IMG/VR virus record: IMGVR_UViG_3300047550_002546 | Coordinates: 1-64,000 of that record | Length of the DNA: 64,000 nt | Source: a virus | Direction: 5' to 3' (one strand) | Shown here: positions 1,659-63,928 of the stretch, in pieces | How positions within the stretch are numbered: position 1 is the stretch's first letter | Layout of the letters: the number at the start of each line of letters is the position of its first letter | The notes under the pieces: model-generated | Databases searched by the model: none | What the model saw: only the letters and a program-made list of their open reading frames with translations | Told to the model about the DNA's origin: nothing | Made by a program: the position numbers and the translations under genes

Positions 1659-1691
1659 TTGACATTTCAGCAGAAGTTTCTAACATACTTC
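1659..1691 (+). promoter_or_regulatory. Promoter with 19-bp dyad element (copy 1)
   Basis: TTGACA (1659-1664), 16-nt spacer, TAACAT (1681-1686). The dyad GAAGTT-TCTAACA-TACTTC lies at 1673-1691 and covers the -10 box. It precedes the small-gene run that starts at 1750. This is the copy with the clearest sigma70-type promoter. Confidence 0.75.
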
Positions 1692-1749
1692 CAGTGATAG
1701 AAATCGCCGTCCAATACGGTCGGCGTCTTGCTATTTCGGGAGTTCTGAG

Positions 1750-1923
1750 ATGTTCGAATACTGGTTTTCACGGTGGGTGAACACCGACGACGGCAGCAGG
1801 ATGAGAAATCCGCGTGGCTCCGCGATGTACCCCAAGCACATCATCCGCCAGATGCTGGAATCCGCGTTTAACGCCGGGGCAGCAATGAAAGAGGCGGAAC
1901 TGGCTGCGGGGGCGACGGCATGA
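1750..1923 (+). CDS. Small hypothetical protein (57 aa)
   Basis: The ATG at 1750 opens the first gene behind dyad copy 1. It has aromatic residues near the start (MFEYWFSRW) and an Ala/Glu-rich helical end. Its stop overlaps the next start (ATGA at 1920-1923), which supports it as a real coupled gene. Function unknown. Confidence 0.7.
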   Translation: MFEYWFSRWVNTDDGSRMRNPRGSAMYPKHIIRQMLESAFNAGAAMKEAELAAGATA

Positions 1924-2159
1924 AAGTTGAGAGCCTGATAAAGATCACGATCGGCGAAACCGCCCACGAGATCACGATGGATGAGGCCAGATCCCTGTTC
2001 GCGGAACTCCAGAAGCTGTTCCTGTCTAGCCCGCCAAATGACGGGCTTCGGGACGCGATTCAAGACGCTTTAGGCTACAGGCGATGGCGTCCGTCAGTGA
2101 TCCCGCTTCGCGTCTATCCGGGTACTTTGGAGGCTGCGGAAGATGGGTCACCCGTTTGA
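1920..2159 (+). CDS. Hypothetical protein (79 aa)
   Basis: Coupled to the previous gene by ATGA and overlapping the next by 17 nt. The first half (MKVESLIKITIGETAHEITMD) alternates hydrophobic residues like a short beta-sheet followed by a helix (EARSLFAELQKLF). No family recognised. Confidence 0.7.
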   Translation: MKVESLIKITIGETAHEITMDEARSLFAELQKLFLSSPPNDGLRDAIQDALGYRRWRPSVIPLRVYPGTLEAAEDGSPV

Positions 2160-2379
2160 AGAACACAAACCGCATTGTGGTCGTACAAATGCAGTTGTGC
2201 GGCAATGCCAGAAAACAAAGGAATACTGCACCGCCACGAACCCACGCGGCGGGCAGTGTGATTGCGAGTTTGTCCAGTTGAACGGCGCGAAAAGCTGGTC
2301 TTGCGTCGCAAAGTGGGGGCTGTTGATGAATGTGCTCTACGCACTGACAGGAAAACGAAGTACGGAGTTGATGCAATGA
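2143..2379 (+). CDS. Small Cys-rich protein, possible zinc binder (78 aa)
   Basis: The start at 2143 has GGAGG about ten bases upstream. There are Cys residues at roughly 13, 22, 28, 39, 41 and 53, plus early His residues, enough for a metal site, though not a standard zinc-ribbon spacing. It ends inside the start region of the cysteine peptidase gene (ATGATG). Function unknown. Confidence 0.6.
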   Translation: MGHPFEEHKPHCGRTNAVVRQCQKTKEYCTATNPRGGQCDCEFVQLNGAKSWSCVAKWGLLMNVLYALTGKRSTELMQ

Positions 2380-2705
2380 TGTTGGTGAAGCAAGTCGGCC
2401 CCACAACCTGCGGCCAAGCCTGTCTGGCGATGATCCACGGAGTCTCACTGGACGAGGCTATTCGTTACGTTGGTCACACCGGCGAGATCAGCGATATCGA
2501 TATGTTCACGATGAGCGGCACCGACTCCGGATTCGTTGACGGCCCGCCATCACCGGACATCGTGGCAATCCAGAAGCATCGCGACCCCAGCGGAGATCGT
2601 GAGCACTGGACAGTTAGTTTCAGGGGACAGCTTTTGGACCCGGCAGAGATCGGGGAAAAGATCTGGCCTGTCTACAAGCATTTTGCGGTCGATTGGATGT
2701 GCTGA
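2376..2705 (+). CDS. Papain-like (C39-like) cysteine peptidase
   Basis: From the start at 2376 the protein has 109 residues. Its beginning, QVGPTTCGQACLAMI, is the hallmark of C39-type and related papain-fold peptidases: Q6 for the oxyanion hole and C12 as nucleophile. REHWTVSF supplies the catalytic His (H77) and LLDP the Asp (D88), in the order C-H-D expected for the fold. The open frame runs further upstream, but the start after GGAG (2363-2367) agrees with the overlap with the previous gene. It is single-domain, with no transporter or cell-wall binding part. Processing of a virion or host protein is possible; the substrate is unknown. Confidence 0.8.
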   Translation: MMLVKQVGPTTCGQACLAMIHGVSLDEAIRYVGHTGEISDIDMFTMSGTDSGFVDGPPSPDIVAIQKHRDPSGDREHWTVSFRGQLLDPAEIGEKIWPVYKHFAVDWMC

Positions 2706-2706
2706 C

Positions 2707-2922
2707 GTGATCGAGGCTGACAGGGAAACAGAAGAACTCATCGACAAGTTTTGCATCAGATTAGACCAGTCCTGCCGAGAACGAGAGGGGCGACATGCTG
2801 ACAGCAGAATGCAAGCACGGCCACAGCTTCGATGCCAGAGGTCGATGCGACTGCGGGATGACGGAGGCGGAATACCATCTCAGCGACCGCAAGCCGCCAT
2901 GCGTGCAAACCGTCCCGGATAA
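2707..2922 (+). CDS. Doubtful short frame (GTG start)
   Basis: The GTG directly after the peptidase stop opens a 71-codon frame. The first 30 residues are acidic/helical and gene-like; the rest is Arg-rich and overlaps the better gene at 2795. It may be a coupled small gene or chance. It is listed because the 89 nt before 2795 would otherwise be empty in a very compact region. Confidence 0.25.
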   Translation: MIEADRETEELIDKFCIRLDQSCREREGRHADSRMQARPQLRCQRSMRLRDDGGGIPSQRPQAAMRANRPG

Positions 2923-2989
2923 CCACAGATCCCGGCAGAACTACTACGGTGTTTTCACGCTGTTTCACTCCCGCAACAGGGTTCGATGA
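2795..2989 (+). CDS. Small zinc-ribbon-like protein (64 aa)
   Basis: GAGAGGGG just upstream of the ATG is a good ribosome site. The amino end reads CKHGHSFDARGRCDCG: a Cys/His pair followed by CxC, typical of short phage zinc knuckles. It ends in an ATGA-type overlap with the next gene. DNA or protein binding is likely; partner unknown. Confidence 0.65.
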   Translation: MLTAECKHGHSFDARGRCDCGMTEAEYHLSDRKPPCVQTVPDNHRSRQNYYGVFTLFHSRNRVR

Positions 2990-3216
2990 TGGGCGAGATA
3001 TTCATTTGCGACGGATGCGGGAGAGACACAACGTCAACCAAGAGACTTTGCAGCCGATGCACGGGGCTGTCATCGAATAGCTACGACAATCGCGGCCTGA
3101 TCGGTCGCAAGTCGCCATCAATTGACGAATCGCGGCGAAACATCATTCGGGAATTAGTCCAGCGGTCTGAATCCACTGGATGGGCATATGACGACGGTGA
3201 CGAGGGAGACGAGTAG
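2986..3216 (+). CDS. Small zinc-ribbon protein (76 aa)
   Basis: CDGCGRDTTSTKRLCSRC gives a CxxC-CxxC ribbon within the first 30 residues, followed by a basic patch and an acidic tail (DDGDEGDE). Two ATGs in a row (2986, 2989) are both possible starts. Possibly a nucleic-acid or polymerase-binding factor. Confidence 0.7.
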   Translation: MMGEIFICDGCGRDTTSTKRLCSRCTGLSSNSYDNRGLIGRKSPSIDESRRNIIRELVQRSESTGWAYDDGDEGDE

Positions 3217-3218
3217 GC

Positions 3219-3604: not shown

Positions 3605-3626
3605 TGAAGCAACTCGCGGAGGAGCG

Positions 3627-3692
3627 ATGAACACCAGTCAGGCTATCGCTATTTCCGATAACACGTTGACAAAGTATTTGCGGGGCCGATAA
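3627..3692 (+). CDS. Possible 21-residue leader peptide
   Basis: A strong ribosome site (GGAGGAG) precedes an ATG at 3627. The frame ends TAATG with the next gene start at 3692. The peptide reads MNTSQAIAISDNTLTKYLRGR, here quoted in two parts: MNTSQAIAIS then DNTLTKYLRGR. It could serve only to couple translation. A still shorter frame (3601-3630) sits just before it. Confidence 0.35.
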   Translation: MNTSQAIAISDNTLTKYLRGR

Positions 3693-5259: not shown

Positions 5260-5288
5260 TTGATTTGTGGAAGTTTCTGGTAAAATGC
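5260..5288 (+). promoter_or_regulatory. Promoter with dyad element (copy 2)
   Basis: The dyad is at 5270-5288: GAAGTT-TCTGGTA-AAATGC (left half perfect, right half 4 of 6). TAAAAT (5281-5286) is a good -10; TTGATT (5260-5265) is a possible -35 with a short 15-nt spacer. It lies 34 nt ahead of the gene at 5323. Confidence 0.6.
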
Positions 5289-9802: not shown

Positions 9803-9885
9803 CAGGCTGACCACCGGCTTGATTGCCTTGACGAGCTTCCGCTACTGTTTACGCTCAAAAAACTCTCCAGATCACCAAAATGCGA

Positions 9886-9904
9886 GAATTTTCTGAAAAA
9901 CTTC
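9886..9904 (+). promoter_or_regulatory. Dyad element (copy 3) between divergent units
   Basis: GAATTT-TCTGAAA-AACTTC; the right half is perfect. TAGAAT at 9907-9912 follows directly as a -10-like box. It precedes the + gene at 9977 by 72 nt. Confidence 0.65.
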
Positions 9905-9976
9905 CGTAGAATGTGATCCGACGCGGCTTGCGAGCGTATCAATGGGCGGGTGATGTTCCGCAAACGGGAGAGCTAA

Positions 9977-11561: not shown

Positions 11562-11609
11562 TTGATTTCTGATTTCGCGCCGCTAAACTGGAAGTTGGTC
11601 GGAAACTTC
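11562..11609 (+). promoter_or_regulatory. Promoter plus perfect dyad (copy 4) for the packaging operon
   Basis: TTGATT (11562-11567), 16-nt spacer, TAAACT (11584-11589), then the perfect dyad GAAGTT-GGTCGGA-AACTTC at 11591-11609 over the expected start of transcription: a repressor-operator layout. Confidence 0.7.
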
Positions 11610-14214: not shown

Positions 14215-14233
14215 GAATTTTCCGATAAACTTG
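14215..14233 (+). promoter_or_regulatory. Dyad element (copy 5)
   Basis: GAATTT-TCCGATA-AACTTG. TAAACT (14226-14231) lies inside as a -10-like box. It is just past the terminase stop and 74 nt before the nucleotidyltransferase gene. Confidence 0.6.
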
Positions 14234-14306
14234 TGATCTGATCGGATTCTGGAACGTATCACAGGACGGGTTGTTATCACGGATCGAAGTTTATGGGGAT
14301 CGCGAT

Positions 14307-15010: not shown

Positions 15011-15555
15011 AGATCGAGGAATTCAAGGCGTTGGCCAACGGAGCGAAGGTCGTTTGGACGGGATACAACGGCCCCGTCGATGGAGTGTTCACGAAAAACG
15101 GCGACGGATATCAGATTACGTGGAGCGATGGGAAGGTCGCTTACGGGGTGTTTCGCCAAGGAGGCTTCATGGAGGATAAATGGGTGGCGAACATCGCCGT
15201 CGCCGCAACTCAGTTTGCCGAAATCAAGATTCCGATTCCCGCAGGCTGGGTAGCAACCGGCGAATTCAGATTGCCATCGCCGCTGGTTGATTGCTATCTC
15301 CATCAGGACGGCGTCACCGTAATCGAGGCGAAGTGTGGCAACCAGCCCTGTCTCGGCCCTCGCGTCATCTTGAAGCGGATCGTTCCGAAAACTCTTGCCG
15401 ACAGGATTCGCGACTACACCAGAGTGATCGGCGAGGCTGTTGACGCCACCAACCCAGCCGATGAAGGAGCACTCCGTATCGTAATTCTGAGGGAGGTTCG
15501 CCGCGACTTGATCGAAATCCTCAAGGAATTTGACGGACCGGAATCAAAAGCGTAA
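15007..15555 (+). CDS. Hypothetical protein (182 aa)
   Basis: The ATG at 15007 overlaps the previous stop. The first part is beta-rich and Gly-rich (VVWTGYNGPVDGVFTKNGDGY) like a small SH3 or DUF-type fold. The second half is helical with paired charges (LREVRRDLIEILKEFD). Not recognised. Confidence 0.65.
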   Translation: MKIEEFKALANGAKVVWTGYNGPVDGVFTKNGDGYQITWSDGKVAYGVFRQGGFMEDKWVANIAVAATQFAEIKIPIPAGWVATGEFRLPSPLVDCYLHQDGVTVIEAKCGNQPCLGPRVILKRIVPKTLADRIRDYTRVIGEAVDATNPADEGALRIVILREVRRDLIEILKEFDGPESKA

Positions 15556-15571
15556 GATTCGCGGAAACTTC
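15553..15571 (+). promoter_or_regulatory. Dyad element (copy 6)
   Basis: TAAGAT-TCGCGGA-AACTTC; right half perfect, left half 4 of 6. It overlaps the stop of the gene before by three nt and ends 14 nt before the ATG at 15586, so the ribosome site CTGAAAGG follows directly. Confidence 0.55.
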
Positions 15572-17541: not shown

Positions 17542-18072
17542 TCAATGAAAACCATACTGCTGTCGTGCATAGTGCATTCTTCGCAGTTCGTTCGACCATC
17601 GGTGTAGATTGTCCTGCCCGATCAGCTTTATGAATCCGATCTGAACGAGAAGCGATGCGTCAATCGCCGATTCCAGAATCCAGCAAGCGAACCGCGATTC
17701 TCCCAAAACTACCAACCGAACATTCATCGTTACCTGATTGTATTCCCTGCGATTCGGCCCCGGACCACTCATTGGATCGTCGAACTCGCTGGATGGAAGG
17801 ATCACTGAAAGATTCAGCCACGGGCGATTCGTTTTCGTTGGATCTACATCAACGTAACCGACAAGCGTCATGTCACTCAGACGAACATCGAACAGATTGC
17901 GGATGGTTTTCTCGATGCGACCAAGCCCCACTGGACGCAGCCAATACTCGTCATCTTTCGTGTAGGTGACGAACTTGCTGCGGGAAACCGGCGGATGCCA
18001 TGTTTCGTCAAACAGCCCGTGGGTTTGCATTGGCTTAATGGCTGCTGGACGTGCTGATACTGATGTCGTCAT
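17542..18072 (-). CDS. Hypothetical protein paired with an XRE regulator (176 aa)
   Basis: Its ATG overlaps the stop of the XRE gene upstream (ATGA), so the two form a translational pair. Mixed alpha/beta with a Trp-rich middle (YWLRPVGLGRIEKTI). No toxin motif is visible. Pairing with an HTH gene recalls toxin-antitoxin or repressor-effector pairs, but this is context only. Confidence 0.6.
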   Translation of the reverse strand: MTTSVSARPAAIKPMQTHGLFDETWHPPVSRSKFVTYTKDDEYWLRPVGLGRIEKTIRNLFDVRLSDMTLVGYVDVDPTKTNRPWLNLSVILPSSEFDDPMSGPGPNRREYNQVTMNVRLVVLGESRFACWILESAIDASLLVQIGFIKLIGQDNLHRWSNELRRMHYARQQYGFH

Positions 18073-18317
18073 TGTTCGGCCAGTTTTTCAAACGTGACTC
18101 GATACCCCATCGCTTCCGCCAGAGACAGGACTGTTGTTACATGAAGGTTGTCGCGGCTTCGCTTCAAGAATCGGTAAACACTGGCGTTGTCGACTCCAGC
18201 GCCCTCGCAGATCTCCGGGATGCTACGATCGTCCGCTTCGAAGAGTTTGTAGAGGTCTTCCCGCAGATCTTCGATCAATGGGGTGGCAGTTGTCATAATC
18301 AGGTCGGATGCACTCAT
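18069..18317 (-). CDS. XRE-type HTH regulator (82 aa)
   Basis: SIPEICEGAGVDNASVYRFLKRSRDNLHVTTVLSLAEAMGY, here over residues 32-73, is a lambda-repressor-like DNA-binding domain: the recognition helix runs through NASVYRFL, followed by the 'LxxLAxALG' helix. GGTGAGGG precedes the ATG. Single-domain repressors of this kind bind short palindromes as dimers, so it is a good candidate for the 19-bp dyad. Confidence 0.75.
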   Translation of the reverse strand: MSASDLIMTTATPLIEDLREDLYKLFEADDRSIPEICEGAGVDNASVYRFLKRSRDNLHVTTVLSLAEAMGYRVTFEKLAEQ

Positions 18318-18328: not shown

Positions 18329-18568
18329 CTAGTTTACTGGTTCAAGAAAATCAAATGTCACACGGCGGACAATTCGATGGCGATCCAAATCGACGATGCG
18401 AGATTGACAGACATGGCCCCGGTTTCGTCTCGCCACATCAAGACAATCCGATGACAAGTCTGGACAATCCACCCACACGCCCATGTCATTTCGCTTCTGC
18501 ACAATCCACCGCACGGAGCACGCAGACAGCTTTTCTACGCTTGAAACGTCCATCTCAGCCTCACCCAT
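18329..18568 (-). CDS. Hypothetical protein (79 aa)
   Basis: Overlaps the end of the DUF1580-like gene by 8 nt. Cys/Asp-rich middle (WVDCPDLSSDCLDVARR) and a basic beta end (RHRIVRRVTFDF). ATG 18553 is an alternative start. Not recognised. Confidence 0.55.
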   Translation of the reverse strand: MGEAEMDVSSVEKLSACSVRWIVQKRNDMGVWVDCPDLSSDCLDVARRNRGHVCQSRIVDLDRHRIVRRVTFDFLEPVN

Positions 18569-18830
18569 TTGTTGCGTCCGAAAACCGCTTCACTGCCTCG
18601 ACCGTCGTGTAAACCTTGCCGCCCTGCCTGTACCATTCCAGATAGGCCCGGCCACCGTTGACGTCTCTGGCCCCTCGCTGACGCCAGTTGTAGATGTCGG
18701 ACATCGAAGCCGGGACGGCAAACAGCTTCCCGGCGTTCTTCAGAAGGACTGGCGTTTCAGTCCGAACCTGATCGGGCGTCAGGATGTTGCTTTTCTTCGC
18801 CAGTTTCTTGACAACACGCTTTTTCTTCAT
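18561..18830 (-). CDS. DUF1580-like HTH protein (89 aa)
   Basis: The end reads IYNWRQRGARDVNGGRAYLEWYRQGGKVYTTVEAVKRF (residues 46-83), matching the DUF1580 pattern (W..RG..G..LE..R.GG..YT..EA..RF) that is typical of Rhodopirellula and other planctomycetes. The fold is a MerR-like winged helix. The amino end is very basic. This is one of the better hints to the host group. Confidence 0.65.
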   Translation of the reverse strand: MKKKRVVKKLAKKSNILTPDQVRTETPVLLKNAGKLFAVPASMSDIYNWRQRGARDVNGGRAYLEWYRQGGKVYTTVEAVKRFSDATNG

Positions 18831-18832
18831 AG

Positions 18833-18985
18833 TTAAAACTTCGCATAGGGATGAGCGACTGGACATCGCACGGAGTTGTCGGGCTGCATCTGGACGAAGC
18901 ATTCCCATGCCAACGTCGGAATCCCCCAAGTGTGCGGCGGGTTCGTTTGAAGCCACGCCGATACGTCACTGAATGGGTTGATCAT
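18833..18985 (-). CDS. Small hypothetical protein (50 aa)
   Basis: ATG 18985 lies in the end of the gene upstream. Trp/Pro-rich short sequence (AWLQTNPPHTWGIPTLAWE). It may be a real accessory peptide; only position and composition support it. Confidence 0.5.
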   Translation of the reverse strand: MINPFSDVSAWLQTNPPHTWGIPTLAWECFVQMQPDNSVRCPVAHPYAKF

Positions 18986-19818: not shown

Positions 19819-19837
19819 GAAGATTCTAGTAAACTTC
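19819..19837 (+). promoter_or_regulatory. Dyad element (copy 7)
   Basis: GAAGAT-TCTAGTA-AACTTC; TAAACT (19830-19835) is a -10-like box inside. It starts the head operon; leader to ATG 19924 is 86 nt. Confidence 0.65.
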
Positions 19838-21324: not shown

Positions 21325-21343
21325 GAAGTTTCCAGACACATTC
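21325..21343 (+). promoter_or_regulatory. Dyad element (copy 8)
   Basis: GAAGTT-TCCAGAC-ACATTC, 29 nt before the decoration protein gene. Left half perfect, right half 4 of 6. Confidence 0.55.
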
Positions 21344-22214: not shown

Positions 22215-22233
22215 GAAGTTGGGTTGCAACTTC
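22215..22233 (+). promoter_or_regulatory. Perfect dyad element (copy 9) before the capsid gene
   Basis: GAAGTT-GGGTTGC-AACTTC, 23 nt before the major capsid ATG; CTCAGGAG ribosome site follows. Suggests a separate strong transcript for capsid, closed by the terminator at 23439. Confidence 0.75.
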
Positions 22234-23827: not shown

Positions 23828-24336
23828 CGAATCCGTATTGTTCGGCCACTGATGTCACGACGTATATCGGTTCATGTGCGATGCCGCAGGTGACAACCGG
23901 CGATCCGACATCCGTGACCACGGACACCGCATTCATCGCCTACGCAATCAACGCTGCCGACGCAGAAATCGATTCGCATCTGGTTCATCAATACGATTTA
24001 GAAGTTACCCATGCACTGCATCCTGACTGGCTGCGACACACCAGTGCCATCATCGCGGCGGTCTGGATCTTTCGCAGCGGCCAGAACGGGACCATTCCGC
24101 CGGGCCTTCAGGCGTGGTTTGACGAGCGCATGCAGGCGTTGCAGTCGATCGGAGAAGGGAAACGGCAGATTCCGGGCGTCAACGTGAAAGCAGATCCGGG
24201 GGTTTCGATGTCGAACCTCCGCCACGATCAGCGACCAGCCGACAAGAAGATCAGAACAATGCCTTGGCTCAACACCGGGGATCAGAACAGCACACAAGTC
24301 CGTAGCATCGACCTCAATCCACCGTTTGCACTATGA
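23824..24336 (+). CDS. Head-tail joining protein (Mu gp36/DUF1320-like)
   Basis: The start 'NPYCSATDVTTYIG' and the helices after it (AFIAYAINAADAEIDSHL, WLRHTSAIIAAVWIFR) match the gp36/DUF1320 connector family. GTG 23824 overlaps the stop before it. 170 residues. Confidence 0.75.
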   Translation: MTNPYCSATDVTTYIGSCAMPQVTTGDPTSVTTDTAFIAYAINAADAEIDSHLVHQYDLEVTHALHPDWLRHTSAIIAAVWIFRSGQNGTIPPGLQAWFDERMQALQSIGEGKRQIPGVNVKADPGVSMSNLRHDQRPADKKIRTMPWLNTGDQNSTQVRSIDLNPPFAL

Positions 24337-24896
24337 GTCAGTTAGCACTACGCGCCGCGATCAGAGACGCAATCAGGACGGAATACAGCCTGAAGGATTG
24401 CCAGTGCATGGTCATGGATGCCGACGGACAGCCTCCGCAGAGTGCATCGCCACTGTTCGTTGCCGTGCATCCGGGGGCTTGGCGGCGAGCATCGCAGTGG
24501 AAAGGCGGTCCGCTGTTTGATGAGGAACTCGGATTCCGGGTAACAGTCAGTGTCCAGAACTCTGGGGTTCAGCCTCAGAATTATGGGGAATGGTATCTGC
24601 AAAACGCAGTGCCACTTGGAACATGCGGGGCCGGTCTGGAGTCGTTTTGCCGTGCCATTGCGGTGTTCCTGCATGACAACGACAGCATTATGTGCGGACT
24701 CGAAACGGCGACGGGAAACGAAGGCCAGTATTCCGGCGGTGTTTTTTTTCAAGACGGCGGGATGGCAGTTGAAAGAACTGCGGATTGGTGGAGAAGTAAT
24801 CCCGCCAGCAAGACCAGTAACCCACCGATCGGATTGTCTCAGACGATGACGTTTGACGGTGTAAGACGAACTCAGTTATCAGGAACGGCGACATGA
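24333..24896 (+). CDS. Tail-completion protein, copy 1 (187 aa)
   Basis: Directly after the connector gene, in the place of Mu gp37/tail-terminator proteins. Its sequence (VAVHPGAWRRASQWKGGPLFDEE, CGAGLESFCRAIAVFLHDN, GLSQTMTFDG) recurs, clearly related, as the last 190 residues of the repeat fibre at 30508-32757. Ring-forming tail terminator is the working idea. Confidence 0.7.
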   Translation: MSQLALRAAIRDAIRTEYSLKDCQCMVMDADGQPPQSASPLFVAVHPGAWRRASQWKGGPLFDEELGFRVTVSVQNSGVQPQNYGEWYLQNAVPLGTCGAGLESFCRAIAVFLHDNDSIMCGLETATGNEGQYSGGVFFQDGGMAVERTADWWRSNPASKTSNPPIGLSQTMTFDGVRRTQLSGTAT

Positions 24897-28056: not shown

Positions 28057-28156
28057 AATCGGCATTTTCGCAAAAAGTTCCCGAAAATACTGAACCAAAA
28101 CAATCCGGTTACGTTGACTGTATTGGAGTCAAACACACAACCGGAGGATTGATAAA

Positions 28157-30015: not shown

Positions 30016-30034
30016 GAAGTTGCGTAATATCTTC
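30016..30034 (+). promoter_or_regulatory. Dyad element (copy 10)
   Basis: GAAGTT-GCGTAAT-ATCTTC; TAATAT (30025-30030) is a near-perfect -10 inside it. 16 nt before the ATG at 30051. Confidence 0.7.
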
Positions 30035-30507: not shown

Positions 30508-32757
30508 GTGCTCCAGTTCTATCTTATCCGCGTTTCGACGCCGATCCCGATCTCGATTTCGGGGTCGGCGTCTCAATCTTGGTCTGACTCCGGCACGCTG
30601 ACTGGTGGCGGCGTTGTCTCTGCTGATGCATCGCAATCATGGTCAGGCTCTGGTGACGCAGTTGGTTCTGGTGTTGGTTCTGGCGATGCGTCCGAATCGT
30701 GGTCAGCAACCGGAACAGTCGAATCCGGTGTTGTTATCGTTGGTTCCGCCAGTCAGTCGTGGACGGATTCCGGGGCAATCACCGGATTTGGTGTCGTCGC
30801 GTCATCAGCATCGGAATCATGGGGGGCGAATGAAGCACTCATTGGCGGGGCAGTCATCTCTGTCTCCGCGTCGCAGACTTGGACTGACGCGGGTGACGCT
30901 ACGGCTGGTGCCGTCATAACCGGCGATGCGTCAGAGTCGTGGGCTGGGTCAGGGTCGGTCGTTGCGTGTGGCCTCATTGTTGGTTCTGCAAATGATGCGT
31001 GGTCAGCAAGCGGGGATCTTCAGTCAGGTGTGGTCCTGTCTGGTTCCATGCTCGAATCGTGGTCCGCGTCCGGAGATGCGACGGGCGCGGGGGTAGCTTC
31101 TGGGGCGGCGTCGCAGACTTGGTCCGGTTCCGGAACCCTGATTTCTGGTGTCGCCATGAGCGGCACGGCATCCGAATCATGGACAGGTTCAGGAACTTTG
31201 TTCGCGACTGCGATCGTGTCCGGCGCTGCATCGGAATCGTGGTTGCCCTCTGGTGTTCTAGTGGCGGGGTTTCCAGTTTCCGGAGATGCCTCACAGTCAT
31301 GGACGGCAGCAGGATCAATTGTTGGCTCCGGTGTCGTTTCAGGCTCCGGATCTCAGTCCTTCACGGCAACCGGGGCGATTACTGGATACGGTCTGGTCTC
31401 AGGGTCCGCTAGTCAGGGATGGCAGGAGTCGGCCACGCTTGGGGCGACGGCTTTTGTGTCCGGCGCGGCGTCTCAGGCGTGGAGTGACTCTGGATCGATC
31501 ATGGCTGAAGCTCCGGTTTCCGGCGATATGTCTCAGGCGTGGGCAGCGTCAGGAGATTGTGTTGGAGTCGCTCCGGTATTGGGGGCGGCTTCTCAGTCCT
31601 ATGATATCGGAGCAGCATCGGCGATCGGTGTCGGGATCGTATCCGGATCGGCGGATGAGTCGTGGACGGTCGATTCCACGTTCTATGCTTCTGCGGTCGT
31701 TTCTGGGGCGGCAAGTGAATCGTGGGATGCAGCGGGAACCCTGTTTGCCGTGGCTCCCATTTCCGGGGACGCTTCTCAGTCATGGTCCGGGACCGGCTCG
31801 CCATTCGGTGCCGCTGTCGTCGCGGGGTCAGCTTCGCAGGCATGGGACACCACGGGAGACATCTTCGCGTCGGCTTTTGTCTCCGGTTCAGCCGAAGAGA
31901 CATGGACGGCATCTGGTGTTCCGACCGTTGTCGGCGTCGTGTCTGGATCTGCTGTTCAGACTTGGTCTGATTCTGGCAGCATCACAGGCTCCGCGTCAAT
32001 TTCCGGTGACGCATCGGAATCGTGGTCGATCTCCGCCGTGTTCTACGGAACGGCAGTTGTTTCGGCATCATGCACGGAGACATGGGCGACAACCGGCGCG
32101 ACAGTCGCAATCGGATTTGCATCTGGATCTGCCGAGGAACAGTGGCAGGCTTCCGGGCTGCTGATTCAGACCGTCGATGACGCCCCGGAACTGTCCAAGA
32201 ATCCTTCGCAGGCCATTCTAAGGGCACTTGTTCGTGATGCGATCATTGACCATTTCGGACTGTCTGAGTGCCAATGCGGCATCAACTTCAACGGACAGCC
32301 GCACCCGAACTCAGGCCCAGTCTATATCAGTGTGCATCCGGGAAAATGGCGACGAATCAGGAGATGGCGAAAAGGCCCGCTTTTGGATGAAGAATTCGGC
32401 TTCCAAGTCACCATCACCGTCAAGAACTCCGCAGTCCAGCCGAAGTTTTACGGGGAATGGTTTATGCAAAAGACAGCGGCGCTGAATTCCTGCGGAGCCG
32501 GTCTTGAATCTCTGTCCCGTGCGATCGCGGTCTACTTGCACGACAACGGCTCCATTATTTGTGAACTCGCCAAAAGAGCATCCGGACTGTCGCATTTCTC
32601 TGGTGGGATCTTCTGGGAGAACGGAAGCGTGCCGAAACAGAGAAGGGCGAAGTGGTGGCTCTGCCCGTATCAGACAGGAAACCCGTCTATTGGATTGTCT
32701 CAGACGTTGGTGTTTGGGGGACTGCGGCGGAGCCAGCCGACTGCGGATCGGTCGTAA
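30508..32757 (+). CDS. Repeat fibre fused to a second tail-completion domain (749 aa)
   Basis: GTG 30508. Residues about 15-555 are 27 tandem 20-residue repeats with the core [Q/E]-[S/T/A]-W-x-x-[S/T]-G followed by GxxVVSGxAS. The last 190 residues match the protein at 24333 (VHPGKWRRIRRWRKGPLLDEE, CGAGLESLSRAIAVYLHDN, GLSQTLVFGG). The repeats would form a long beta structure; the end domain could anchor it. Last gene of this + block. Confidence 0.8.
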   Translation: MLQFYLIRVSTPIPISISGSASQSWSDSGTLTGGGVVSADASQSWSGSGDAVGSGVGSGDASESWSATGTVESGVVIVGSASQSWTDSGAITGFGVVASSASESWGANEALIGGAVISVSASQTWTDAGDATAGAVITGDASESWAGSGSVVACGLIVGSANDAWSASGDLQSGVVLSGSMLESWSASGDATGAGVASGAASQTWSGSGTLISGVAMSGTASESWTGSGTLFATAIVSGAASESWLPSGVLVAGFPVSGDASQSWTAAGSIVGSGVVSGSGSQSFTATGAITGYGLVSGSASQGWQESATLGATAFVSGAASQAWSDSGSIMAEAPVSGDMSQAWAASGDCVGVAPVLGAASQSYDIGAASAIGVGIVSGSADESWTVDSTFYASAVVSGAASESWDAAGTLFAVAPISGDASQSWSGTGSPFGAAVVAGSASQAWDTTGDIFASAFVSGSAEETWTASGVPTVVGVVSGSAVQTWSDSGSITGSASISGDASESWSISAVFYGTAVVSASCTETWATTGATVAIGFASGSAEEQWQASGLLIQTVDDAPELSKNPSQAILRALVRDAIIDHFGLSECQCGINFNGQPHPNSGPVYISVHPGKWRRIRRWRKGPLLDEEFGFQVTITVKNSAVQPKFYGEWFMQKTAALNSCGAGLESLSRAIAVYLHDNGSIICELAKRASGLSHFSGGIFWENGSVPKQRRAKWWLCPYQTGNPSIGLSQTLVFGGLRRSQPTADRS
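30555..32160 (+). repeat. 27 tandem ~60-bp coding repeats
   Basis: Each unit encodes about 20 residues centred on S-x-S/T-W-x-x-S/T-G. Amino-acid conservation is higher than DNA identity, so the units are old and kept by selection on protein. Confidence 0.85.
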
Positions 32758-32761: not shown

Positions 32762-33448
32762 TCAATCCGAAGCTGGCTCAAACGCCCTCATGACTGATGG
32801 CTTTGAGTTTACATCGATATTCCGACGGAGCCACTGAACAATATGACGCCCAACACCCATGTTGGAGTTTGGGTCGCGATCCATTTCCATGTCTTTTATC
32901 ACTTTCGAAGACCGAATCGTGACTTTCCCGAAGAAAAACGACAGCATTGCCACGGATGCGCCGAGTTCCCATAGCGACTGATGCGACCATCCGCGAGAAA
33001 ATGAGTCTCTGTCGAAGGTATAAACACCATCGGACCTTCTGACTGCCATAGGGCAGTATCTCATTCGTGATCGCAGTTGTTTGATTGCCGACTTCAATTC
33101 CGCCTCTGTAGTGGTGTGACCTTCGTCGTCTTGCGGCAGATCTTTTTCGTTGCTCACGGCAGGTTTTTTACTCAACTCCAGATCTCTCGTCAGATTCTGG
33201 ATCAATTGATTCAAACGCCTATTTTCAGAGAGAGCGTCTTCCAGTTTCAGTTCCGCAGAGGCGGCGCGGCTTGTCGCGACTGCCTTGAGTTCAACGGCCT
33301 CCAGTTCGCGTTCTTCCGAGGACGACAGTCGCGTGCGAATCACGTTCACTGCATCCTTCAGTTTGCGAAGTTTATCAAGGCCAACCGTGTCTCTCCCAAG
33401 ATACGCAGCAAACTCTTCGAATTGTTTCTTCACCTGAGAAATGCTCAT
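32762..33448 (-). CDS. Coiled-coil protein paired with ParB-like gene (228 aa)
   Basis: ATG 33448 overlaps the ParB-like stop. The first 110 residues are charged helices (LDKLRKLKDAVNVIRTRL, ENRRLNQLIQNLTRDLEL); the end is globular (FSRGWSHQSLWELGASVAMLSFFFG). It runs against the surrounding tail genes. Function unknown. Confidence 0.65.
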   Translation of the reverse strand: MSISQVKKQFEEFAAYLGRDTVGLDKLRKLKDAVNVIRTRLSSSEERELEAVELKAVATSRAASAELKLEDALSENRRLNQLIQNLTRDLELSKKPAVSNEKDLPQDDEGHTTTEAELKSAIKQLRSRMRYCPMAVRRSDGVYTFDRDSFSRGWSHQSLWELGASVAMLSFFFGKVTIRSSKVIKDMEMDRDPNSNMGVGRHIVQWLRRNIDVNSKPSVMRAFEPASD

Positions 33449-34452
33449 TTTTGACTCCACATATCCGCTGGGACGCGGGCTTCTTGCGGCTTCTTGTTTG
33501 GGGCGATTGATTTCAGTTGCTTGGTGATGTCGGAAATGATCCTGAAAAACTCATCGACGTTTGGCACTCGATCTCCTCGCGTGATGATGCTGTCTAGGAC
33601 GGTTTGCGCTGTTTTTAGCGTCTTTAGCAGCACCACATCCTTGGGTAATTCCGTAGACTGCCGTCCGGTCACTCTTGATCGGATTTCCGGATCGTCGTGA
33701 ACAAGTTTAAGCCTCGACACATACGTTGCGTGTGGGTTTGACGATTTCGGGAGCGGAGAGAAAAAGTCGGAAATATAAGGAGCGGCGTCTGTCGCTGATA
33801 TTCTTGACTTCTTGATCGTTTGCAGAAAGCCAACGACCGGCTCCATCGCCTGCTCAATCACAGACGATCCGTGAATGTATGGCCGTAACTCCGCCAGCAT
33901 TGCGTCGGGAAGCTCCGGGCCTCCAACCAGACTGATTCGAGACTGAAGCTCTACCGCCTCCGCGATTCGCTTTACATCCGCAACTTTCCACCCGCCAATC
34001 TGGGCTACTTCAGCGGGACTCATCTTGCGATCAACGACGAGAACTTCCACTGCCCTGCGTCGCGTCCACTCCGCAGGCTCTGCACGTCCCTGCATTCTCG
34101 CATTGGCGAGAACCCTGATCATCGCCAACGCATCCTGAGAGTCGGTTTGAACGACATACGCGGAGACTCGCGTTATCTGGTTGAGTTCTGCGGCGGAAAG
34201 TCGCTGAACCCCATCAAGCACGCGAAGACCGACCTCGGATCGATACAAAATAGGGGCAGGCGCCGCAGATCCAGCATCCATCAGGGTTGCGTATTCGATA
34301 ACAGCATCTTCACGCACAGCAATCGGGCGACCAATGTTCTCTGAGTTCCATCCCGGAGCAAACTCAGTCGGCAGCATCAGCCCGTTGACATACTCGTATT
34401 TGACGCCGATCGACGTCAGGAAATTTTCCGTTCTACTGTCCGTTGTAAACAT
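33445..34452 (-). CDS. ParB/Srx-domain protein (335 aa)
   Basis: Residues about 45-130 follow the ParB amino domain: GRPIAVREDAVIEYATLM, APILYRSEVGLRVLDGVQRLSAAEL (the substrate/nucleotide loop, GVQRL for the usual G-E-R-R or GyHRl), then VSAYVV. Next comes an HTH-like region (MSPAEVAQIGGWKVADVKRIAEAV) similar to the ParB DNA reader. It could partition DNA or regulate genes. It is a candidate reader of the genome's dyads as well. Confidence 0.75.
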   Translation of the reverse strand: MFTTDSRTENFLTSIGVKYEYVNGLMLPTEFAPGWNSENIGRPIAVREDAVIEYATLMDAGSAAPAPILYRSEVGLRVLDGVQRLSAAELNQITRVSAYVVQTDSQDALAMIRVLANARMQGRAEPAEWTRRRAVEVLVVDRKMSPAEVAQIGGWKVADVKRIAEAVELQSRISLVGGPELPDAMLAELRPYIHGSSVIEQAMEPVVGFLQTIKKSRISATDAAPYISDFFSPLPKSSNPHATYVSRLKLVHDDPEIRSRVTGRQSTELPKDVVLLKTLKTAQTVLDSIITRGDRVPNVDEFFRIISDITKQLKSIAPNKKPQEARVPADMWSQK

Positions 34453-34636: not shown

Positions 34637-34655
34637 GAATTTTCCAAGAAAATTC
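34637..34655 (+). promoter_or_regulatory. Dyad element (copy 11)
   Basis: GAATTT-TCCAAGA-AAATTC, one central mismatch per half, 43 nt before the tape-measure gene. Confidence 0.5.
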
Positions 34656-36376: not shown

Positions 36377-38143
36377 ATGGCATCCCTCCCCGGCGTAGGA
36401 ACGATCTCATACAACGGCTTCGCCTTCGATGGCCCGATGGTATCGTCTCGCGCGTCGATTGAGAATGTTCGCGGGGACGATGATCGTGCGGTGATCTTCA
36501 GTGAAATCTCAGTTGAAGTCCACGCCACGATCGACTTGGAGAACTGCGGCATCCTTCAGGGCGATCTTCCCGATGGCTATATGTCCACGATCGACGATAT
36601 CGTGCGAGCACTCTCGCAGGACGGCAAGGCGTTTGTATTCACCGACAAGATATTTGAGAGACTGGCCGTCAATACCGGAGAAACCGGCGATTATGTCGAC
36701 GTCAACTACGGGCCAAGAGTCAAGGTCGTCTCTCTGGTTCCCGTTGTCGCAAATCGCGTGTTTGAGATCGTTTGGACAGCAAGAGTCTCTGTCGCGAAGT
36801 GCCCCGGAACCGATGTGATCCTGAGTGAAGGTGCTGTTCGGCAGTTCGTTTACGGCTGTCAGTGGAGCGGAGACAGTCGGGGCTATAGCACTCGCACGGT
36901 TTCCGGCTTCATCGAAATCGTCTCCGTTCCAGCGATGAGCGACGACCAGATCACGATCAGTGCGGATGACTACCGCGAGAAACTGACAGTAGCCATGCCG
37001 GAGGGCTATCGTCGAGTCCAAAATCATTGGCAACTCGAACCAAACAAAAGCCGAATTAACTTCGCCATCACCGACGAAGAAATCCCAAGCCCCAATGCGT
37101 ACCCGCCGGATGTTGTCGATATCGAGATCAGCCATCAGGTCAGCGTCGGACAATCCACCGCATTTTCGCAGGCCGTGTCAATTCTCAGTGGTCATTGCGA
37201 GGTAGCCAACGGTTTCACGTCGTCGGATGCTTGGGAGCGAGTCTTCCCGATTATTTCGGCACGAATTCAGCGGGCGAGAACTAACGTCGGCGCCATCATG
37301 CTGCTGGATATCTCGGTCACGGAATACCTGTATTCGCGGCGCATCGCATTCCAGATCACGTATCAGAAACTTGGGACGTCACCTTCCGGATTTATCAAGT
37401 CGTCGGGCCTGTTCTCTGCAACGGACGACACATGGAGCGAATACCGGGCTTCGATGTACGGTCCGGATGAAAACACGAACGATACCGATTTGCCGTGGTC
37501 ACGACGGTCAATGTCGAATCTGTCGTTCGAACCATCCGATGACAAGATTGTGACTCCATGCACCGAGCAGCCATTTGATGTTCTGGTTCACAACCAGAGA
37601 CTGACTCCGTTTTCAAATCCGTTGCAAAGCGTACTGTCGAACACCTGCCCGCCGCGAAACAAGAGTTACTCCATCTACGAGAGCCGTATGAAAACGGAGA
37701 CAGCCAGCGGGGCCACTTCCGTCTACGAAATGCCGACAGAATCAACGTCTTTCACGCCAGAATCCGCGAAAACAACAGATGGAGCCACAATTTCAGCCGG
37801 TCTTGACGCTGGTGAACAGCGGATTCGCACGTTTGACGCATCCGCAGTGTCACCAGACATGACGATGACGCTGATTGGACATGCGGCGAGGCTGGGATAT
37901 CCAGTTGAGATTCCGAAGATTGCGGAAACGTCTGGAATCACAGTGAAGCGAGTCCGTGGTGGCGACAAGATTGAGCAGAAGTCGTTCATGTACATGGGGT
38001 GCCGAATGTATATGGCGAAATGGAATATCAAATACAAGATCACGGAATCGGCGACAGACGCCGCCGCACGAATCGGAAATTCGTTTGATCTGCTGAATCA
38101 GACCACAGACTACCCATCTGGCGGGCAGATGGATGTCGTTTAA
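36377..38143 (+). CDS. Tail structural protein (588 aa)
   Basis: Follows the tape measure by one base. Beta-rich throughout; the start (LPGVGTISYNGFAFDG) looks like an exposed tail or distal-tail domain. No enzyme motif. Position supports tail-tip or baseplate. Confidence 0.65.
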   Translation: MASLPGVGTISYNGFAFDGPMVSSRASIENVRGDDDRAVIFSEISVEVHATIDLENCGILQGDLPDGYMSTIDDIVRALSQDGKAFVFTDKIFERLAVNTGETGDYVDVNYGPRVKVVSLVPVVANRVFEIVWTARVSVAKCPGTDVILSEGAVRQFVYGCQWSGDSRGYSTRTVSGFIEIVSVPAMSDDQITISADDYREKLTVAMPEGYRRVQNHWQLEPNKSRINFAITDEEIPSPNAYPPDVVDIEISHQVSVGQSTAFSQAVSILSGHCEVANGFTSSDAWERVFPIISARIQRARTNVGAIMLLDISVTEYLYSRRIAFQITYQKLGTSPSGFIKSSGLFSATDDTWSEYRASMYGPDENTNDTDLPWSRRSMSNLSFEPSDDKIVTPCTEQPFDVLVHNQRLTPFSNPLQSVLSNTCPPRNKSYSIYESRMKTETASGATSVYEMPTESTSFTPESAKTTDGATISAGLDAGEQRIRTFDASAVSPDMTMTLIGHAARLGYPVEIPKIAETSGITVKRVRGGDKIEQKSFMYMGCRMYMAKWNIKYKITESATDAAARIGNSFDLLNQTTDYPSGGQMDVV

Positions 38144-41421: not shown

Positions 41422-41440
41422 GCAGTTTCTGGGAAAATTC
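41422..41440 (-). promoter_or_regulatory. Dyad element (copy 12), - strand unit
   Basis: Read on the - strand: GAATTT-TCCCAGA-AACTGC. It lies 114 nt upstream of the cassette gene at 41307. Confidence 0.5.
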
Positions 41441-41979: not shown

Positions 41980-41998
41980 GAAGTTGCCAATCAACTTC
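41980..41998 (+). promoter_or_regulatory. Perfect dyad element (copy 13)
   Basis: GAAGTT-GCCAATC-AACTTC, 56 nt before the gene at 42055. Confidence 0.7.
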
Positions 41999-47295: not shown

Positions 47296-47314
47296 GAAGT
47301 TTCGCAACAACTTC
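47296..47314 (-). promoter_or_regulatory. Perfect dyad element (copy 14), - strand
   Basis: GAAGTT-GTTGCGA-AACTTC on the - strand. TTGACT, 17 nt, GAAACT form a promoter whose predicted start falls on the ATG at 47291, so the mRNA may be leaderless. Confidence 0.65.
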
Positions 47315-47620: not shown

Positions 47621-47639
47621 GAAGTTACCAAGAAACTTC
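47621..47639 (+). promoter_or_regulatory. Perfect dyad element (copy 15)
   Basis: GAAGTT-ACCAAGA-AACTTC, 21 nt before GTG 47661. A lone left half (GAAGTT) also lies at 47590. Confidence 0.7.
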
Positions 47640-49190: not shown

Positions 49191-49209
49191 GAATTTTCGC
49201 AATAACTTC
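49191..49209 (+). promoter_or_regulatory. Dyad element (copy 16)
   Basis: GAATTT-TCGCAAT-AACTTC, 70 nt before the gene at 49280. Confidence 0.6.
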
Positions 49210-49279
49210 TGATCTGATTGGCTTGGGATGCGTAACATTGGTGGCGGAGTTTTGTTTTCAGCACTTTCGGAGGTGAATC

Positions 49280-50402: not shown

Positions 50403-50421
50403 GAAGTTTCTTACAAACTCC
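50403..50421 (+). promoter_or_regulatory. Dyad element (copy 17) before the clamp gene
   Basis: GAAGTT-TCTTACA-AACTCC, 16 nt before the ATG at 50438; CTGAAAGGA ribosome site follows. Confidence 0.65.
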
Positions 50422-57286: not shown

Positions 57287-57305
57287 GAAGTATATTAGAA
57301 ACTTC
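57287..57305 (-). promoter_or_regulatory. Dyad element (copy 18), - strand
   Basis: On the - strand GAAGTT-TCTAATA-TACTTC. TTGCCT, 17 nt, TAATAT: a good promoter whose start would fall at the ATG at 57285. A leaderless transcript is likely. Confidence 0.75.
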
Positions 57306-60006: not shown

Positions 60007-60052
60007 GTGACCATCCACTCCCCAGTTTACGCACGCCAGACGATTCAGATCA

Positions 60053-60071
60053 GAAGTTTTTTAGAAACTTC
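60053..60071 (-). promoter_or_regulatory. Perfect dyad element (copy 19), - strand
   Basis: GAAGTT-TCTAAAA-AACTTC on the - strand. It touches the stop of dnaB (60072) and lies 46 nt before ATG 60006, so a new unit starts here. Confidence 0.7.
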
Positions 60072-61461: not shown

Positions 61462-62358
61462 TCATGTGGATTGGTCAGGTGATTGAAACATCGCCGCCAG
61501 CCCAAGTGGATCTCCGGTTGACCGATTGGCGCGGCTCCATGTGATATGACGCAGCTTCCCGCGATCACGGTCAGCATCGGTAATCACTCGCCACAGCCCG
61601 TCTCGCACAATCGAAACGAAGTAGGCCACGCGACTCTCGACAGGCTCGCCGCCAAGTGCATCAACGGACAGTGCACGCTCCGCCGCCGCGATAACCTTGA
61701 GTTCGTTTTCGTGACACGGCTCAACGAGCTTCGTGTGGTTCAGCCAGTCGACGAGCTTCTGGGTGTCTTTCAGATCCGAATCTTTCAAATCCCATTTTCC
61801 GAAGTTTTCGGGGGCCGCAATGGGTTCAGGAATGGGATTAGGTGTTTTAGGATTAGGTATAAGAGTGTATTGCTTTCCGCACGTTTGCGGTATTGGTTCC
61901 GGCGCGGTTGCTGCATTAGTTTCCGCATGGTTGCTGCATTGGTTTCCGCATGGTTGCTGTATTACTGGTGATACACAATCTTCAGGTTCAGTAGGGTAGT
62001 GCTCTCTCACAAAGCCAATCTCGGAGTCCTCGATGTCCCTCGCATGCTGCGGGATCGTGATCCAATATTTACCCGGAACACCCTTCTTGCCATGCTCATA
62101 ATGCAGCCAGCCGCTTTTCACGGCCTTGTCTCTCGCTCTCGCAAGTGTTTGCCTGTCGCTAAACCCTGCCACTGGGACAAGTTGCTCGTCATACCATGTG
62201 ATCGGCCTCCGGTATCTGGCGGAGTCCTCAGTCTGGCCAATCACAACCAACAGGCTAAACGCGCCGTGGCCGATCTCGTTGATGAGGCATGTTCGCATCA
62301 TCAGTCTCATCGCCTTGTGTGCGAAGAATGGCTCTCGCTTCGGATACTCCGCCTTCAT
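61462..62358 (-). CDS. Replication organiser-like protein with HTH (298 aa)
   Basis: Residues about 10-110 (FFAHKAMRLMMRTCLINEIGHGAFSLLVVIG, SDRQTLARARDKAVKSGWLHYEHGKKGVPGKYWI) fit a winged-helix initiator domain like phage O/DnaD-type replisome organisers. A Pro/Asn linker (IPNPKTPNPIPEPI) and a second helical domain follow. It lies just before dnaB, so it probably loads the helicase at the phage origin; no origin was identified. Confidence 0.75.
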   Translation of the reverse strand: MKAEYPKREPFFAHKAMRLMMRTCLINEIGHGAFSLLVVIGQTEDSARYRRPITWYDEQLVPVAGFSDRQTLARARDKAVKSGWLHYEHGKKGVPGKYWITIPQHARDIEDSEIGFVREHYPTEPEDCVSPVIQQPCGNQCSNHAETNAATAPEPIPQTCGKQYTLIPNPKTPNPIPEPIAAPENFGKWDLKDSDLKDTQKLVDWLNHTKLVEPCHENELKVIAAAERALSVDALGGEPVESRVAYFVSIVRDGLWRVITDADRDRGKLRHITWSRANRSTGDPLGLAAMFQSPDQST

Positions 62359-62792
62359 TTCGCCCCCTTCGCGGCCTCTCGCCGTCGCTTCATGAGATCC
62401 ATCAACGTCAGGTGTGGAGGTGCTGTGCTTTCCGTAACCTCTTTCCACCCGCTTCGTTTCTGCGGTTCCGCTTTCTTGCCTCGCTTCAGGTTTTTCGCCT
62501 CAGTTCGGCGCCGGAGCCTCGCCAACGTCTTTTCCGATTTCGGTGTCTGTGCTGGCCCCGGAGGAATCAGAGAGTTGATCAGAAGCCGGTCCAGCGTCTT
62601 GAAGTAGAGCAGTCGTTTCCGGAGAACTCCGCGAGAACTGGCGTGCAATCGTCTCTGAACGCCGTCTGGCATCCGAATGTCGATGTACCACGTCAGGTGT
62701 CGTCTCCCGTCGCGTTTCCAGAGTTTGTTGTGGCTTCGCACCTCGCCGATGATTTCCGGGGGTGGAAGCAGTCGTTTTTCGTCAGGCGTCAA
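62355..62792 (-). CDS. Basic hypothetical protein (145 aa, start uncertain)
   Basis: The frame is open to 62975, but this would overlap the nuclease gene by 194 nt. TTG 62792 overlaps that gene's end and has GAGGG upstream. Very basic (ARLRRRTEAKNLKRGKKAEPQKRSG), so it may bind nucleic acid. Confidence 0.5.
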   Translation of the reverse strand: MTPDEKRLLPPPEIIGEVRSHNKLWKRDGRRHLTWYIDIRMPDGVQRRLHASSRGVLRKRLLYFKTLDRLLINSLIPPGPAQTPKSEKTLARLRRRTEAKNLKRGKKAEPQKRSGWKEVTESTAPPHLTLMDLMKRRREAAKGAK

Positions 62793-63537
62793 CGCTGGCC
62801 CTCGCTTCTTCCAGAATTTGCTTGTAGACGTCGGGATGCTGTGCCGGGAATCTGAGATTCGGCCCGGCAATCCACTCCCCTCTTTTTTCAGGATGTGGGG
62901 ACACCCATTCCATTTGGCGCCATCGTCGCGGGTCGCATCCGATATCACCCATTCGCTTTGAGCGGATACTGCCATTGATCTCGATTTCGGCGCAGATTCT
63001 CAGGGCTGAAATCTTCCATTCCGTGAGCCGAATCGGGGATGATGCCCCCGCAGGGACGTCTGGGATGTATTCCGGAAGCGGATGACGCGCAGCCGGGTTC
63101 CAGTACCTGTTTTCAAGAAAGTCTCGATTCACAAGCTCAAGTGCCGTGAACGTGACCGGAGGATCGTTCAGCCATGCCTTGATCTGTTCTCTGGTCAACC
63201 CAGATGGGGTGATGTAATTCGGCTCCGGCTTCAGGAGAATTACACCGATACTGGATAAGACGTGATCCCAATCCTGATCCGCCACCGGAACGAGCACGGC
63301 GCGAAAATCCGGCCCCGGTTGCTCGAACTCATATCGAGACGGCAGCACTTGCTTCATTACGGCGGCGTTGAGCCGCATCTTGGCCTGAACACCGACTTGA
63401 ACTCCGTCCGGATTCACCAAGAGTATGTCCCACCCGCAGGTTTCCGCATAAGGAACCCATCCTAGCTTCTTGGCTTCCGCGATAAATGCGGCACAGAGTT
63501 GTGTTTCCGTCTTGTACGGCGGCTTCCACGGCTTCAT
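62782..63537 (-). CDS. PD-(D/E)xK-like nuclease domain protein (251 aa)
   Basis: ETQLCAAFIAEAKKLGW followed by CGWDILLVNPDGVQVGVQAKMRLN (residues 34-57) has the D...QxK core of restriction-like (PD-(D/E)xK) nucleases. The rest is mixed with Trp-rich loops. ATG 63537 has GGGGAG upstream. Possibly a recombination or DNA-end enzyme. Confidence 0.7.
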   Translation of the reverse strand: MKPWKPPYKTETQLCAAFIAEAKKLGWVPYAETCGWDILLVNPDGVQVGVQAKMRLNAAVMKQVLPSRYEFEQPGPDFRAVLVPVADQDWDHVLSSIGVILLKPEPNYITPSGLTREQIKAWLNDPPVTFTALELVNRDFLENRYWNPAARHPLPEYIPDVPAGASSPIRLTEWKISALRICAEIEINGSIRSKRMGDIGCDPRRWRQMEWVSPHPEKRGEWIAGPNLRFPAQHPDVYKQILEEARASVDA

Positions 63538-63658
63538 TCGGCTCCCCAAAAACAAAACGCCGACATTGCAAGCTGTAACCATGCAATGCGGCGCGTAATC
63601 CGCCTAAGCGGTTGATTCCTGTTCTGATGTGTGGCTACAGCTTTTCATTGCAACGATC

Positions 63659-63928
63659 CTACGTGGCTTCCGATTCGGCGTCAAGAAGTTTACGGGAAAC
63701 TTCCTGTTGTGGATCGGCGCCAGTTCTTTTCCAGTACCAAGCCCCGTCAACAAACGTCGGTTCTCCGTCCGCTCCGAACGGACACTTCCAGCTGATGAAC
63801 ATCGGGCCGCGACCACGTTCACGATATAGTCTCCGCTCGTTGTACCAGTATTCAGGGCCGCGATTTTGGAAGTCGATTTGAAACGGCTTCATGTCGGGCT
63901 GCGGTTCGATTCTGACGAGATCACTCAT
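63659..63928 (-). CDS. Hypothetical protein (89 aa)
   Basis: Aromatic and Arg-rich (FQNRGPEYWYNERRLYRERGRG). Its last codons contain dyad copy 20. ATG overlaps the stop of the gene cut by the window edge. Confidence 0.65.
   Translation of the reverse strand: MSDLVRIEPQPDMKPFQIDFQNRGPEYWYNERRLYRERGRGPMFISWKCPFGADGEPTFVDGAWYWKRTGADPQQEVSRKLLDAESEAT
63685..63703 (-). promoter_or_regulatory. Perfect dyad element (copy 20), inside a gene end
   Basis: GAAGTT-TCCCGTA-AACTTC on the - strand. It lies within the last 15 codons of the gene at 63659 and 147 nt before the next gene's ATG (63537), the only copy mainly in coding DNA. Confidence 0.65.

Follow-up and report, generated by a model that had tools for sequence, protein, structure and literature searches.

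To our knowledge, genome-wide operators have been described in only a small number of phage groups whose hosts have been studied. In Streptomyces phage phiC31, near-identical palindromes are dispersed before early and late genes and serve one phage repressor, which is not known to be a ribbon-helix-helix (RHH) protein. The large temperate phage P1 carries dispersed asymmetric operators for a single repressor, C1. P22 Arc is a small RHH protein whose 21-bp dyad overlies a promoter, and the RHH protein F55 of SSV1 acts at several promoters. Here we analyse a 19-bp dyad, GAAGTT-N7-AACTTC, that recurs in a window of 64,000 bases (positions 1 to 64,000 of IMG/VR virus record IMGVR_UViG_3300047550_002546), which makes up most of the 64,751-base record. 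Our results suggest that the dyads are probably operators dispersed over a phage genome of ~106 kb, through which one regulator would control almost every transcription unit. Mycobacteriophage L5 and the cluster A phages have more than twenty genome-wide sites in short intergenic spaces and in one orientation to transcription; each site is an asymmetric 13-mer to which the repressor binds as a monomer, and sites and repressor co-diverge between relatives (PMC9283540, PMC6550527).

The phage studied here resembles phiC31 in its many near-identical dispersed palindromes, but the site sequence differs and no homologous repressor was identified here. As in L5, many sites lie in short intergenic gaps, and here too the sites are seen to co-diverge, with the regulator at the level of a candidate; unlike L5, the sites are near-symmetric dyads of 19-21 bp, many of them on promoters. 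Dispersed operators of one, here putative, regulator in a large phage also recall P1. We know of no protein found here that C1 resembles. Whereas Arc and F55 act at one or few promoters, about thirty sites are present here, and the candidate regulator matches the RHH family weakly.

Copies, spacer and placement of the dyad

The dyad is confirmed as a real element. All 20 copies listed by a sequence-only reading of the window lie at the coordinates it gave, and the fixed spacer of 7 holds: at this spacer we recovered 7 perfect copies, as claimed, together with 7 one-mismatch and 11 two-mismatch copies. Other spacers (0-6 and 8-15) give no perfect and 0-2 one-mismatch copies each. With up to three mismatches allowed, 57 dyad matches are found against 24.8 expected, a count reached in 0 of 100 shuffles, and when every 6-mer dyad with a spacer of 0-19 is scanned blind, GAAGTT-N7-AACTTC comes out top. 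The half-site consensus in this phage is GAAGTTTC-N3-GAAACTTC, with a 3-base centre, and the extended consensus in the gene sense is GGAAGTTTCTRRNAAACTTCC. The dyad is slightly polar with transcription, scoring better in the gene sense at 13 of 17 sites.

By the gene calls made in this analysis (83% coding), all seven one-mismatch dyads and six of the seven perfect dyads are intergenic. A symmetric weight matrix with a threshold of 13 bits yields 21 matches in the window, 20 of them intergenic (binomial p 6e-15), and an independent test with an open reading frame (ORF) mask places 17 of 19 sites between genes. The near-exclusive intergenic placement proposed earlier is thus borne out. The sole exception among the 21 matrix matches is the perfect dyad at 47621..47639 (plus strand), which sits in a called ORF for an HNH endonuclease, at its 5' end; the start codon of this ORF is doubtful. 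The comparison with coding and shuffled DNA that had been proposed as a check shows unequal densities. One matrix match absent from the earlier list, 28062..28080 (plus strand; GCATTTTCGCAAAAAGTTC, 17.3 bits), is intergenic and lies 5' of a pectate-lyase-like tail gene. The two-mismatch matches at 24001, 38486, 42632, 43574 and 50143 are inside genes and look like chance matches.

The rest of the genome and a relative with a changed site

A pattern scan of IMG/VR found the contig G018 (41,547 bases), in which five dyads are perfect or one base off; the control gave no match. One end of G018 shares exactly 127 bases, at 100% identity, with an end of the window's record, and the shared stretch falls inside one reading frame. 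Tetranucleotide usage correlates between the window and G018 with r 0.876, compared with 0.704 for the next best sequence and 0.846 between the window's own halves, and the related phage G001 has homologues of both the window's record and G018. Together, the overlap, the tetranucleotide agreement and the G001 homologues indicate that G018 is the next ~41 kb of the same phage, bringing the joined genome to ~106 kb. An unrelated phage sharing the regulon, which would have implied a host factor, was also considered for G018 and dropped, because the 127-bp end overlap marks the same genome.

Since G018 belongs to the same genome, scanning it tests the window-trained matrix out of sample. The matrix yields 12 sites on G018, where shuffles average 0.5 and never exceed 2, so that the scan beyond the window called for by the sequence-only reading succeeds. 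Seven of these 12 sites are intergenic, and three more are no further than 90 bp from a called start. Copies of one site are thereby spread across early, late and accessory modules, ~33 in total over ~106 kb (21 in the window and 12 on G018). G018 encodes a tyrosine integrase, CsrA, a sigma-like gene product, an ERF recombinase and a putative RHH protein. The sequence-only reading had set the dyads apart from a simple lysis/lysogeny switch; with an integrase present, an immunity repressor acting through dispersed operators is quite conceivable. The CsrA gene (G018 33232-33456) has a dyad directly 5' of it, and a CsrA gene is also present on the Planctopirus plasmid-prophage pPLIM01.

The relative G001 (112,930 bases) shares 70% identity with this phage in the terminase and 59% in the capsid protein. 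GAAGTT-N7-AACTTC shows no excess in G001. A dyad scan of its gaps with iterative refinement revealed that G001 has its own dyad, GAANYGTC-N2-GACRNTTC, with a 2-base centre and 26 sites vs 1 in the reversed sequence; a generic dyad search confirmed each phage's own spacer. The sites of the two phages occupy matching positions past gene ends (this phage/G001: terminase +16/+14, protease-like gene +16/+14, decoration gene +36/+38, helicase +10/+19 and another gene +58/+58), and the capsid gene has a site at -33 in both. Six orthologues have a site at their end in this phage, and each of the six has one in G001 as well (Fisher p 1e-4). A third contig, L002, carries a G001-type dyad past its terminase. 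No third phage with the regulon of this phage came out of pattern scans of IMG/VR, which returned many isolated matches attributable to chance.

A site that keeps its place and alters its sequence is strong evidence, at the level of sequence comparison, that the site is functional and that its regulator would have changed with it. The earlier proposal of a single regulator for nearly the whole phage finds good support in the unequal coding and shuffled densities, the same sites on G018 and the co-diverged G001 sites at the same junctions.

Promoters, competing explanations and candidate regulators

Promoters were scored with E. coli sigma70 weights. The best promoter near the sites has a mean score of 8.4 vs 6.5 in shuffled sequence, with 11 of 33 above the shuffled 90th percentile. 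The -10-like hexamer reported earlier for many copies is found at about half of the sites and not at the remainder. At ~10 sites the dyad covers the -35, the -10 or the start (e.g. 1673, 11591 and, leftward, 19819), and dyad positions relative to ordinary sigma70-like promoters vary. A different layout recurs in which the dyad is followed by 0 or 9-11 bases and then by [CT]GATC[CT]-N14-[AG]CG-TAWMA, a composite promoter that can also be written TGATCY-N17-TAWMAT or TGATCY-N14-RCGTA. The window holds six composite promoters vs 0.24 expected, five of them beside a dyad, and all three on G018 have a dyad or half dyad next to them. At 63685 the same dyad-upstream layout has TTGACG replacing TGATCY, and two sites show a third layout, the dyad, 5 bp and TTGACG-N18-CACAAT. 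A dedicated promoter class, the other possibility raised earlier, therefore holds for a subset, at least eight dyad-linked TGATCY-N14-RCGTA promoters (five in the window and three on G018), and fails elsewhere, where dyads overlie ordinary sigma70-like promoters.

These mixed positions favour a repressor overall. We propose that a dimeric, probably phage-encoded protein would bind both half-sites and block RNA polymerase where the dyad covers the -35, -10 or start. Dyads upstream of composite promoters possibly serve activation: just upstream of weak TGATCY-N17-TAWMAT promoters, the bound protein may have an activating or modulating effect comparable to that of lambda CI at PRM. A fuller scheme, rather unlikely as a whole, would have one RHH master regulator of the 106-kb phage repress strong promoters covered by dyads and activate the class with a weak -35 from directly or one helical turn upstream, with changes in a few strand residues rewiring its specificity and the ~thirty sites shifting in step.

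Some of the same observations can be read differently. A dedicated activator would make the dyads serve one promoter class, like the late promoters of P2-type phages, and at 8 promoters the non-consensus -35 TGATCY does follow a dyad or half dyad, after a gap of 0 bp or of 9-11 bp, one helical turn. However, the gap is 5 bp and out of phase at two promoters, and many dyads cover near-consensus promoters such as TTGACA-N16-TAACAT, where activation makes little sense; we consider this explanation quite improbable. It is also conceivable, if unlikely, that the dyads are stoperators, at which bound protein blocks elongation in short intergenic gaps as in L5. The conserved short distances past gene ends and the weak orientation with transcription (13 of 17 sites) are compatible with such a role, whereas a near-symmetric 19-21-bp dyad in place of an asymmetric 13-mer and the ~ten copies that overlie recognisable promoters argue against it. 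The motif is A+T-rich and sits in A+T-rich gaps, as a compositional artefact would, but the spacer specificity, the out-of-sample recovery and the conserved positions make chance, composition or RNA hairpins an extremely improbable origin, and the out-of-sample scan refutes an artefact. RNA hairpins were rejected on their own account, stem mismatches such as GAATTT vs AACTTC being uncompensated.

A host-encoded regulator or a host-specific promoter element might also read the dyads, with G001 carrying its own host's version. The phage regulator gene is known only at candidate level, and the GC content of 61% in G001 vs 54-55% in this phage points to probably different hosts, which could equally explain the changed site. 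On the other side, neither dyad is above control in other phages or in three planctomycete plasmid sequences, a weak argument as those hosts differ. We regard this explanation as doubtful.

The leading candidate for a phage-encoded regulator, put forward tentatively, is a 63-residue RHH-like protein (G018:17586-17777) that is 48-51% identical to its G001 counterpart. Its gene has dyad 17900 upstream here and sites 89667 and 89785 upstream in G001. The predicted strand reads RTHTHVTFN here vs RQSTQVVFL in G001, and the flanking helices are better conserved. By analogy with Arc, whose base-contact positions we take to map onto this strand, the base-contacting residues would be H, T and N here vs Q, V and L in G001. 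We rank this protein first because it is present in both phages, lies behind its own dyad and differs in its predicted base-contact residues. Among 15 virus records and one plasmid searched, it was found only in the two dyad-bearing phages. Further weak RHH matches are a NikA-like one (0.011) and the CopG-family chain 7ak7 (E 0.36).

The sequence-only reading had suggested four helix-turn-helix (HTH) proteins as binders, at 18069, 11063, 18561 and 33445, and only the DUF1580 protein (18561..18956, minus strand) is kept, as a second candidate regulator. Its G001 homologue is 38-39% identical, and the gene is behind a site in both phages. The small HTH protein at 18069..18317 (minus strand), encoded in the same operon, has no homologue in G001 or in viral contigs, in a search reaching close relatives only, and the 11063 protein has no homologue in G001. 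Because G001 has an equivalent regulon without their homologues, both are weakened, and 18069 is a weak candidate. The ParB-like 33445 protein was in practice rejected as a global binder of the ParB/KorB kind: it is 65-74% identical in 14 phage contigs, among which only G001 has such dyads. LexA was considered as a possible binder; planctomycete LexA is reported only as not using the E. coli motif (PMC3108266). Quite apart from the dyads, the ParB-like gene (33445-34452) and its neighbour (32762-33448), both on the minus strand, are 65-74% and 35-40% conserved in phages sharing no structural genes with this one, a striking pattern for what may be a mobile or strongly selected pair.

Several points weigh against dispersed operators of one phage-encoded regulator. 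A host-encoded regulator that differs between the two hosts would give the same pattern, and the start-based table of sites in this phage and G001 is not significant (p 0.36), partly from uncertain start codons. G018 was joined by assembly overlap and not by reads, and an unseen regulator may lie beyond the open genome end opposite the join. The family match of the RHH candidate is weak (Pfam TacA1 E 8e-4, 19.8 bits vs a cut-off of 21), the model behind the search for its presence was derived from the two positives themselves, and DUF1580 occurs, like the RHH protein, in both phages. A host factor or an unseen gene is thus a serious alternative for the regulator.

Individual sites, other repeats and the probable host

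The remaining sites of the window are described in order, with the strand in brackets where one is assigned. The dyad at 1673..1691 (plus; GAAGTTTCTAACATACTTC) overlaps a TTGACA-N16-TAACAT promoter 15 bp past the upstream gene and has its G001 equivalent at 99666, and the one at 5270..5288 (plus) is centred at about -14 of TTGATT-N15-TAAAAT. The dyad at 9886..9904 is flanked by two divergent composite promoters, TGATCC-N17-TATCAA at 9914..9942 (plus) and TGATCT-N17-TAAACA at 9846..9874 (minus). The perfect copy at 11591..11609 (plus) takes a start-site operator position directly 3' of TTGATT-N16-TAAACT. At 14215..14233 (plus), directly 3' of the terminase gene, the dyad abuts the composite promoter TGATCT-N17-TATCAC (14234..14262, plus) and has counterparts at G001 111816 and L002 ~3307. 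The L002 terminase gene is itself interrupted at the Walker A motif by an apparent intein (~799-1908, ends ...MIPTHNS). The dyad at 15553..15571 (plus) is at about -3 of TTGACG-N17-TAAGAT.

In the head region, 19819..19837 separates the leftward HTH/DUF1580 operon (TTGACT-N17-TAGAAT, centre -12) from the rightward head operon (G001 7567). The dyad at 21325..21343 (plus) lies 5' of the head decoration gene (G001 9053) and the perfect one at 22215..22233 (plus) 5' of the major capsid gene (G001 9955), both capsid-gene centres being 33 bp before the start codon. The copy at 30016..30034 (plus) contains TAATAT and has a start codon 16 bp downstream. Between the ParB-like gene and rightward tail genes, 34637..34655 is accompanied by TTGGAA-N17-TATGAT leftward and TTGACG-N18-CACAAT rightward; the G001 site 19154 is beside its ParB-like gene. 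In addition, a 196-base duplication, 72% identical, is shared by two structural-region genes (24507-24702 and 32374-32569), and an R2K-type ATP-grasp gene lies on the phage at 6802-7476.

Further along, 41422..41440 occupies a divergent intergenic region, followed by a perfect copy at 41980..41998 (plus). Another perfect copy, 47296..47314 (minus), has a leftward start codon 4 bp on and TTGACT-N17-GAAACT. The dyad at 49191..49209 (plus) abuts the composite promoter TGATCT-N17-TAACAT (49210..49238, plus), and 50403..50421 (plus) lies 5' of a gene reading as a DNA polymerase beta clamp, with a clamp homologue in G001. The copy at 57287..57305 (minus) ends ~1 bp before a leftward start codon and goes with TTGCCT-N17-TAATAT. 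The perfect copy at 60053..60071 (minus), directly 3' of the DnaB helicase gene, abuts the composite promoter TGATCT-N17-TAAACT (60024..60052, minus), and G001 51700 is past its helicase gene. The last perfect copy, 63685..63703 (minus), abuts TTGACG-N17-TAGGAT.

Repeats of other kinds were seen in the sequences used for comparison. The 37-kb pPLIM01 of Planctopirus limnophila (L350) has eight copies of TGATTTCYNNRGAAATCA spread round it (2620, 8990, 12902, 18249, 21384, 25164, 32399 and 36364), seven of them perfect and about half inside genes, which are perhaps parS-like sites of its ParB. G014 and G015 (L110-L119) carry a dispersed palindromic repeat of ~33 bases, GTCATGCCTCTGCAGAGGCTTCATTTCTGCAGA, which is REP- or MITE-like and unusual in phages. 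In G013 (L108), five tandem TTCCAC-N3-GTGGAA dyads with 20-base spacing lie in an open frame at 37041-37135, ~4.7 kb from the ParB-like gene, and are perhaps centromere or origin iterons. In G038 (L337-L340), ~20 copies of a repeat centred on GGATCC lie outside ORFs and may form a repeat array.

DUF1580 is typical of Planctomycetota, and the gene mix of pPLIM01 is similar to that of this phage. On these two grounds the host is probably a planctomycete; no host relative turned up in two scans of genome collections. The kind of regulon seen in this phage is known, the lineage is new, and the co-divergence in a relative is unusually clear. It adds a case validated in a second genome, from a poorly studied environmental phage lineage that is probably one of Planctomycetota. 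How one regulator and dozens of sites would change specificity together can be studied in these two genomes as a natural experiment, and predicted promoters can be listed straight from the sites for a host group in which few promoters have been mapped.

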